The position numbers and the translations under genes were made by a program. A stretch of DNA of 64,000 bases from Serratia oryzae (GTDB lineage Bacteria; Pseudomonadota; Gammaproteobacteria; Enterobacterales; Enterobacteriaceae). Position 1 is the first letter of the stretch; the number at the start of each line of letters is the position of its first letter. Below the pieces are notes generated by a model. That model saw only the letters and a program-made list of their open reading frames with translations. It was not told the origin of the DNA and ran no database searches. Location of the stretch: contig NZ_MOXD01000014.1 in NCBI RefSeq assembly GCF_001976145.1, positions 1 to 64,000 on the forward strand, in the 5' to 3' direction. Positions 2,783 through 7,998 of the stretch are shown here, in pieces.

Positions 2783-3487
2783 ATGAAGAAAATATGGTTA
2801 TCACTCATTGGCATGATGATGGCGTTCAGTGTTTCCGCGGCACAGGTTAGTGACAGTTCCCCATCTGTCTCTTTGGATAAAGTTGTGAAAAACGAGCCAC
2901 AAGTACTCAGTGCCTCTGCTGCACAATTCAGTGATGGTGCTCAGTATGTCACCTTAGACAAACCAGTGACCGGTGAGCCGCAGGTATTGGAGTTTTTCTC
3001 CTTCTACTGCCCACACTGCTACCAGTTTGAAGAGGTTTATCACGTTTCTGATAGCGTGAAGAAAGTCTTGCCAGCCGGCACTAAAATGACCAAGTACCAT
3101 GTCGAATTCCTGGGGCCATTGGGCAAACAGATGACTCAAGCATGGGCTGTGGCGATGGCCTTAGGTGTGGAAGACAAAATCACTCCACTGATGTTTGAAG
3201 CCGTACAGAAAACCCAAACGGTACAAACGCCAGATGATATCCGTAATGTTTTCGTGAAAGCGGGTGTTAGTGCTGAGGATTATGATGCGGCTCTGAACAG
3301 CTTTGTTGTGAAATCCTTGGTGGTTCAGCAACAAAAAGCGGCTGAAGATCTGCAATTGCGTGGCGTACCGGCAATGTTTGTTAACGGCAAATATATGGTT
3401 AAGCCCGATGGTTTGGATACCAGCTCAATGGAGGCTTACGTGAAGCAATTTGCTGAAGTCGTGAAATTCCTGAGCGAAAAGAAATAA
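2783..3487 (+). CDS. dsbA: DsbA, thiol:disulfide interchange protein with a duplicated N-terminus
   Basis: DsbA is the periplasmic oxidase that puts disulfides into secreted proteins and is re-oxidised by DsbB. The signal peptide (residues 1-19, ending SVSA) is clear, the active site CPHC is at 76-79, and the cis-proline loop RGVPAMF is near residue 195. The protein has 234 residues, against 208 in E. coli. The extra length is a degenerate tandem repeat: residues 19-42 and 46-69 align with 15 of 24 identities, and the second copy is the canonical mature N-terminus. The repeat also copies the cleavage motif, giving SVSAAQ and then SASAAQ. A GGAG stands 12 bases before the ATG and a terminator follows the stop. 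Confidence 0.95.
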
Positions 3488-3505: not shown

Positions 3506-3529
3506 AACGCCGGTAAATCCGGCGTTTTT
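3506..3529. terminator. bidirectional terminator between dsbA and yihG
   Basis: AACGCCGG and CCGGCGTT form an 8-bp stem around TAAAT, followed by TTTT. It sits 18 bases after the dsbA stop and touches the yihG stop, so it serves dsbA and perhaps both convergent genes. Confidence 0.8.
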
Positions 3530-4424
3530 AGCGGTATTGGCGCCTGAGTTTATCAAGCTGGCGATCTTTCTCCAGCCATAATGTATTCAGCCAAAGCTGG
3601 AATTTGCGCTTGAACCCTTTATCGTTGAAGTAATCCCCGCGCAGTGTTTCATCCACCGGCAGGCATTCAATTCTTACCACCACGCGTTTCATACGGCCGC
3701 CTAGCATATCGATAAACGGATGCGCCTGGTTATCTGGATAGAACAGGGTCACATTTAATACTTTATCAAATTGGTTACCAAGCGTGCTGAGCGTGAAGGC
3801 AATACCCGCGGCTTTGGGGGCCAGCAAATGGCGGTAAGGAGATTGCGTTTTGATTCTTTTCGCTTCGGTAAAACGTGAGCCTTCAACGAAGTTAACAATC
3901 GTTGTCGGGCGTTGACGAAATTTCTCACAGGAGCGACGTGTGGTTTCGATATCCTGCCCGCGTTTTTCTGGATGCTTTAACAAATAGGCGCGCGAATAGC
4001 GTTTCATGAATGGCATATCCAATGCCCAGCATGCCAGACCAACGAAGGGGATCCAGGCTAGCTGTTGTTTGAGGAAATACTTATTCATCGGTATGTGATT
4101 ACGGAAGATCACGCACAGCACAACAATGTCAGACCAACTTTGGTGATTACCGATAAGCAGATACCAATTCTTTTTTTCCAACCCCTTCAGGCCGTTAATA
4201 TCCCATTGTATATCTGGGTTAACTCTGAGTAGCAGCGCTAGGCTTTGGCACCAACACCACATCATGCTATCGGCAAACGTGGAGATTCGCCGCCAGAGAG
4301 CGGGAACAGGAACCAACAGTTTAATAACACTGGCTAGAACGATAGGAAGGGAACATAACACCGTCACCAAGATAGCAAGCAGTGAAGAAATGATAAAAAT
4401 TACAATGGATAACAATTTTGGCAT
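3528..4424 (-). CDS. yihG: YihG, 1-acylglycerol-3-phosphate acyltransferase family protein
   Basis: The 298-residue membrane protein has two hydrophobic N-terminal segments (about 5-40) and then a PlsC-type acyltransferase domain. The catalytic HX4D is N93-H94-Q-S-W-S-D99 and the second motif is E181-G-S-R184. It closely resembles E. coli YihG, which is regarded as a lysophosphatidic-acid acyltransferase of the inner membrane. The start is at MPKLLS, slightly shorter at the N-terminus than E. coli. E. coli has yihF between dsbA and yihG. That gene is absent here. Confidence 0.9.
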
Positions 4425-7853: not shown

Positions 7854-7882
7854 TTTTGCACCGTGAAAAAATGATGTAGAGT
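7854..7882 (+). promoter_or_regulatory. spf promoter
   Basis: TTTTGC (7854-7859) and TAGAGT (7877-7882) are separated by 17 bases, and the predicted start G at 7890 lies 8 bases later, matching the 5' end of Spot 42. E. coli spf is repressed by cAMP-CRP. I do not see a strong CRP box here; TGTAA-N6-TACAA near 7831 is weak. Confidence 0.5.
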
Positions 7883-7889
7883 TACAGGC

Positions 7890-7998
7890 GTAGGGTACAG
7901 AGGTAAGATGTTCTATCTTTCAGACCTTTTACTTCACGTAATCGGATTTGGCTGAATATTAGCCGCCCCAGTCGTTTTTGACTGGGGCGTTTTTTATT
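7890..7998 (+). ncRNA. spf: Spot 42 small RNA
   Basis: The sequence GTAGGGTACAGAGGTAAGAT at the 5' end and the following 60 bases are almost identical to E. coli Spot 42. The 3' end is the GC-rich terminator GCCCCAGTC/GACTGGGGC with a long T-run. Spot 42 is an Hfq-dependent RNA that represses secondary carbon metabolism genes such as galK when glucose is present. Its position just after polA is conserved. Confidence 0.96.

Follow-up and report, generated by a model that had tools for sequence, protein, structure and literature searches.

An apparently lineage-specific tandem duplication of the signal peptidase junction and mature N-terminus of DsbA in Serratia oryzae

The window analyzed here is a stretch of 64,000 nucleotides from the genome of Serratia oryzae (assembly GCF_001976145.1, contig NZ_MOXD01000014.1, positions 1 to 64,000 of the forward strand). 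It contains the gene dsbA, whose reading frame includes two copies of a 27-codon unit. The features of the locus are the following:

2783 to 3487, plus strand: dsbA, encoding the thiol:disulfide interchange protein DsbA (stop codon included; 234 aa by translation).
2783 to 2827, plus strand: n- and h-region of the predicted signal peptide, residues 1 to 15 (from the translation, with a hydropathy of +1.48 in the 11-residue stretch before A19).
2828 to 2908, plus strand: copy 1 of the 27-codon unit, residues 16 to 42 (SVSAAQ...EPQVL), which is extra, has drifted, and has no counterpart in the relatives compared.
2909 to 2989, plus strand: copy 2 of the 27-codon unit, residues 43 to 69 (SASAAQ...EPQVL), which is the canonical DsbA mature start and matches the relatives.
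3008 to 3019, plus strand: CPHC active site of DsbA, identified from the sequence and invariant in a 40-row alignment.

The product of 2783 to 3487 scored 412.8 bits against the NCBIfam equivalog PRK10954.1, for which the cut-off is 279, and 106.7 bits against the Pfam family DSBA. In the 40-row alignment, both the CPHC motif (C57 to C60) and the GVP (Val-Pro) cis-proline loop (G175 to P177) were invariant, with the numbering referring to the DsbA chain from residue 20 on; both are named as DsbA motifs in the accessible part of PMC3828196. Judged by its sequence, the protein is an otherwise ordinary enterobacterial DsbA. It shares with this class (the E. coli DsbA class, PRK10954.1) the core from copy 2 onward, the CPHC and GVP motifs, and the presence of a DsbB partner, and what sets it apart from the class is a surplus of 27 residues separating the signal peptide from the canonical mature start.

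The two copies adjoin, with a period of exactly 27 codons, and are identical at 17 of 27 residues and at 51 of 81 bases. Among 2,000 shuffles of the DsbA sequence, the best 27-residue self-match had 13 identities and the mean was 7.8, compared with the 17 observed. Copy 2 had the same residue as Serratia sp. Ag1 at 26 of 27 positions and was identical to the S. marcescens locus L006 at all 27. When dsbA was aligned with 12 rows of relatives (two of which, G006 and Ag1, represent one genome), the repeat appeared, over the part of the alignment inspected, as a clean insertion of 81 bases in an otherwise collinear gene. The breakpoint is ambiguous by about one codon: the final codon of copy 1, CTC, differs by one change from the TTC ahead of copy 1 and by two from the TTG at the end of copy 2. 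DNA repeat finders run on the sequence did not report the 27-codon unit, the copies of which are just 63% alike at the base level.

The first-pass annotation of this DNA had aligned residues 19 to 42 with residues 46 to 69 (positions 2837 to 2989), without gaps, at an offset of 27 and with 15 of 24 residues identical, and had read the region as an in-frame tandem duplication with a canonical second copy and a drifted first copy. Recounting on the translation reproduced this alignment, the reading agreed with the sequences of the relatives, and the repeat unit was found to reach three residues further upstream (SVS/SAS). E. coli DsbA has 208 aa, which gives the surplus of 26 residues stated at the first pass; compared with the 207-aa form usual in relatives, the surplus is 27. 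On the evidence of the sequences compared, dsbA carries a genuine internal duplication that is lineage-specific and not recent.

Among named genome contigs, at least 564 DsbA relatives were confirmed and the best 80 loci were kept; all 80 of their N-termini had one copy, and most of the frames were 207 residues long. The genus was represented by seven genomes including this one, with a single genome for each species; the other six matched residues 43 to 234 alone and had one copy each. The nearest relative, Serratia sp. Ag1, also had one copy and was 97% identical to DsbA over residues 43 to 234. In a draw of genomes from the family, 306 of 392 matched DsbA at an E value of 1e-40 or better, and among the matches listed, all except that of this genome to itself started at query residue 41 to 44. 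The remaining 86 genomes were without a match, and those listed among them were all 1.4 Mb or smaller. Queries with the two-copy peptide matched this genome alone, both in a draw from the order (1 of 394 genomes; threshold, 1e-12) and in a draw from the class (1 of 369 genomes; threshold, 1e-10); these two draws overlap, and a strongly diverged independent duplication would escape queries of this kind.

Matches to dsbA were also present in 15 plasmid records, and in the 10 rows listed they started at query base 127, 134, or 151, with copy 2 starting at base 127. Searches of viral contigs recovered no match to a 24-base stretch of copy 1 and no DsbA relative that could be confirmed. When the rest of the genome was searched with a 213-base query, no further copy of the segment came to light; the 13 additional matches were 15 to 26 bases long and had E values above 0.2. 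Other long dsbA frames were considered as candidates for independent duplications and were rejected: all 14 that were read, which are part of the long-frame matches listed (G271, G194, and G102 were among those left out), had one copy, and their surplus consisted of open codons upstream of the start. A comparison across Serratia and its relatives had been proposed together with the original annotation, and it led us to reject a clade-wide extension; the relatives compared had a single copy, and a two-copy dsbA was found in this genome alone among those searched. Since one copy was present in the relatives, the congeners, and the listed family matches, and since the two-copy peptide was matched in this genome alone, the extension appears to belong to this lineage. 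In the literature searched, which excluded most subscription papers, no report was found of an N-terminal duplication in DsbA like this one.

For residues 43 to 234, the comparison of dsbA with Ag1 gave a pS of 0.48 (dS, 0.77) and a pN of 0.013, and that between copy 1 and copy 2 gave a pS of 0.86, which is saturated, and a pN of 0.218. At the residues that are the same in both copies, different codons were used in 9 of 17 cases, compared with 12 of 26 between copy 2 and Ag1 (Fisher p, 0.76). For residues 70 to 234, 45 of 160 residues shared with Ag1 had different codons, and the 9 of 17 for the copies lies on the high side of this proportion (Fisher p, 0.050). Because synonymous divergence between the copies is similar to that from Ag1, the duplication is not a recent one, which bears out the earlier description of it as old, retained, and diverged. 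Based on 27 codons, its age would be roughly that of the split from Ag1 or somewhat greater. This estimate also depends on the neighbors of dsbA, which we take to be yihD, srkA, polA, and yihG, and their dS values to Ag1 were spread widely, at 0.26, 0.55, 0.78, and 0.97, respectively. Separately, the frame downstream of dsbA at 3528 to 4424 on the minus strand, presumably the acyltransferase gene yihG, was the most diverged of the four neighbors, with 84.9% identity to Ag1 and a dN of 0.079, compared with identities of 94.3 to 99.0% for srkA, yihD, and polA.

Copy 2 and the S. marcescens segment agree at 27 of 27 residues, which assigns the replacement changes to copy 1, and the pN of 0.218 between the copies, set against 0.013 to Ag1, indicates far weaker constraint on copy 1. 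These values point to much faster residue change in copy 1 than in copy 2. When neutral drift from copy 2 was simulated at 0.38 substitutions per site, which is half of the dS of dsbA to Ag1, a mean of 13.1 of 27 identities was retained and 17 or more were retained in 8.6% of runs. Removing half of the replacement changes raised the mean to 18.6 of 27. Neutral drift of copy 1 would be compatible with these data, and weak constraint is possible.

Concerning the origin of copy 1, the closest external match among the segments compared was to Rahnella, with which it shared 19 of 27 residues and up to 54 of 81 bases, compared with 17 and 51 for its own copy 2 and up to 53 bases for other Serratia. 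Overall, copy 1 resembled many dsbA genes to a similar degree. The motifs SVSA and N-EPQVL are common to copy 1 and Rahnella, and a position of copy 1 on the window branch was not the best placement in the tree. These observations would fit a dsbA fragment that came from another species and was fused in register when diverged alleles recombined, a source that we nevertheless regard as unlikely. The advantage of Rahnella over copy 2 amounts to three bases, and 8 of the 27 residues of copy 1 differ even from Rahnella. Among 103 N-terminal segments, which in places include several loci per genome and among which L105 is copy 2 itself, none was nearly identical to copy 1, the best sharing 54 of 81 bases. 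The window branch lay just 0.5 lnL units below the best placement; in the maximum-likelihood placement of copy 1 on the 17-taxon tree, 29 of 31 positions were within 3 lnL units, and the AU test rejected 1 of 31, so that the placements discriminate little on a segment this short. Furthermore, a search of the rest of this genome gave no donor fragment. Tandem self-duplication would be the simplest origin of copy 1.

The duplicated unit includes the signal peptidase junction, and the first-pass annotation had treated cleavage at the first and at the copied junction as two options. Signal peptidase I requires a cleavage site close behind the hydrophobic region. The Kyte-Doolittle mean of the 11 residues before the junction was +1.48 for the first junction (SVSA-AQ) and -1.09 for the copied one (SASA-AQ). 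Since, of the two copied junctions, the first alone follows a hydrophobic stretch, the signal peptide is likely cut after A19 and the copied site is likely unused; the two options thus do not have equal standing, and the first is favored over the copied SASA site. By the same crude hydropathy rule, other loose sites, for example, after A20, S25, and S28, also lie behind the hydrophobic stretch, and the mature start of DsbA may possibly lie a few residues further in than A20. Unless a protease trims it, mature DsbA would probably carry a 27-residue tail.

Structure prediction of the extension had also been suggested at the first pass. In two AlphaFold2 models, made with 19 and 40 sequences, residues 1 to 27 of the chain beginning at A20 had a pLDDT below 50 and no secondary structure, so the tail was not confidently folded; the two models are of low overall quality (mean pLDDT, 58.2 and 66.6), and nothing in the other alignment rows lines up with the tail. 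In addition, the region of best match started at chain residue 23 to 34 in all 32 listed DsbA-like sequences with solved structures, and copy 2 starts at residue 24.

Taken together, these results make it very likely that an 81-bp in-frame tandem self-duplication took place in the lineage of this species and that, with cleavage after A19, it gave DsbA a mostly disordered 27-residue tail. The duplicated 81 bp would have comprised the signal peptidase junction and the mature N-terminus, and the event would have occurred roughly at the split from Serratia sp. Ag1. Signal peptidase I would cut at the first junction, after A19, leaving in the periplasm an enzyme in which the tail, consisting of the rest of copy 1 plus SASA, stands ahead of a normal DsbA. 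The fold would be made by copy 2, and copy 1 would be free to drift while the frame stays open. The copied SASA site would probably have no role or, at most, offer a point at which proteases could trim the tail, and DsbA function would most likely be unchanged.

N-terminal extensions ahead of a DsbA domain are likewise found in Wolbachia alpha-DsbA2, Legionella pneumophila DsbA2, and ScsC. According to the accessible part of PMC6450060, these extensions run to about 50 to 60 residues, have a helical structure that is either known or predicted, and turn the proteins into oligomeric isomerases. Unlike them, the tail described here has 27 residues, repeats the mature start of the same protein, was modeled without structure (pLDDT below 50 in two weak models), and was found in one genome. 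Because the tail is short, is not helical in the models, and was not found in the six congeners compared, the protein would, on present evidence, fall outside the oligomeric isomerase group. Chlamydia trachomatis DsbA also has a long N-terminal extension, which, in the accessible part of PMC5193440, is described as packing near helix H6 and helping to form a pocket; the likeness drawn here is one of description.

The example of these isomerases raises the prospect that the tail of DsbA has a selected function, such as oligomerization or altered partner choice, which we consider improbable. Its frame has remained open while the sequences diverged over a long time, and 17 of 27 residues survive in copy 1, compared with the average of 13.1 under neutral drift at the assumed age (17 being reached in 8.6% of runs). 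However, an open frame is needed in any case, since a stop would destroy DsbA; the tail, besides its shortness and its lack of helix or strand in the two weak models, is absent from the six other genomes of the genus, and the DsbA core and DsbB are ordinary. Slightly less probable still is that the tail is an early step toward a new N-terminal domain, in which a weakly constrained segment, for example by serving as a decoy or as a strand for swapping, or by yielding two mature forms from the two AXA sites, would alter the oligomeric state or the choice of partners.

That the extension affects the surface used for DsbB or substrates, as raised in the original annotation, is not favored by the comparisons made here. 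In the accessible part of PMC3828196, E. coli DsbA is described as contacting DsbB and substrate peptide via H1, L1, the cis-proline loop L2, and L3-H7, and the duplicated segment is not among these interface elements. The gene dsbB was present and full length in all seven genomes of the genus, this one included, and by-eye comparison across the seven revealed no compensating change in DsbB. Since the interface elements exclude the segment and DsbB is ordinary, such an effect appears unsupported. Finally, an assembly artefact or chance similarity is highly improbable: the sequence comes from a single draft assembly of 81 contigs, the one genome of the species compared, but with 30 of 81 bases differing between the copies a mis-assembled repeat is implausible, the frame and flanks are collinear with the relatives, and the similarity of the copies exceeded that in all 2,000 shuffles.

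A tandem self-duplication of this kind suggests that a well-conserved periplasmic folding enzyme can tolerate a duplicated mature N-terminus, and it would provide a roughly dated example of an exported protein gaining an N-terminal extension without a new domain. The route would be one in which the cleavage junction is duplicated, the upstream site is still cut, and the downstream copy keeps the fold. The duplication in itself does not change the picture of DsbA function.

Two further features were observed in the window and genome. The Spot 42 small RNA gene was located at 7880 to 7996 of the window (Rfam RF00021, 125.1 bits), just downstream of the polA frame, which is the usual enterobacterial arrangement. 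A search of the assembly for 16S rRNA gave no match. A second, distant DsbA-like frame was found in the same genome (G000:C3:11696-12151; locus L002), and it was 23% identical to DsbA over residues 56 to 209, with an E value of 9.5e-7.
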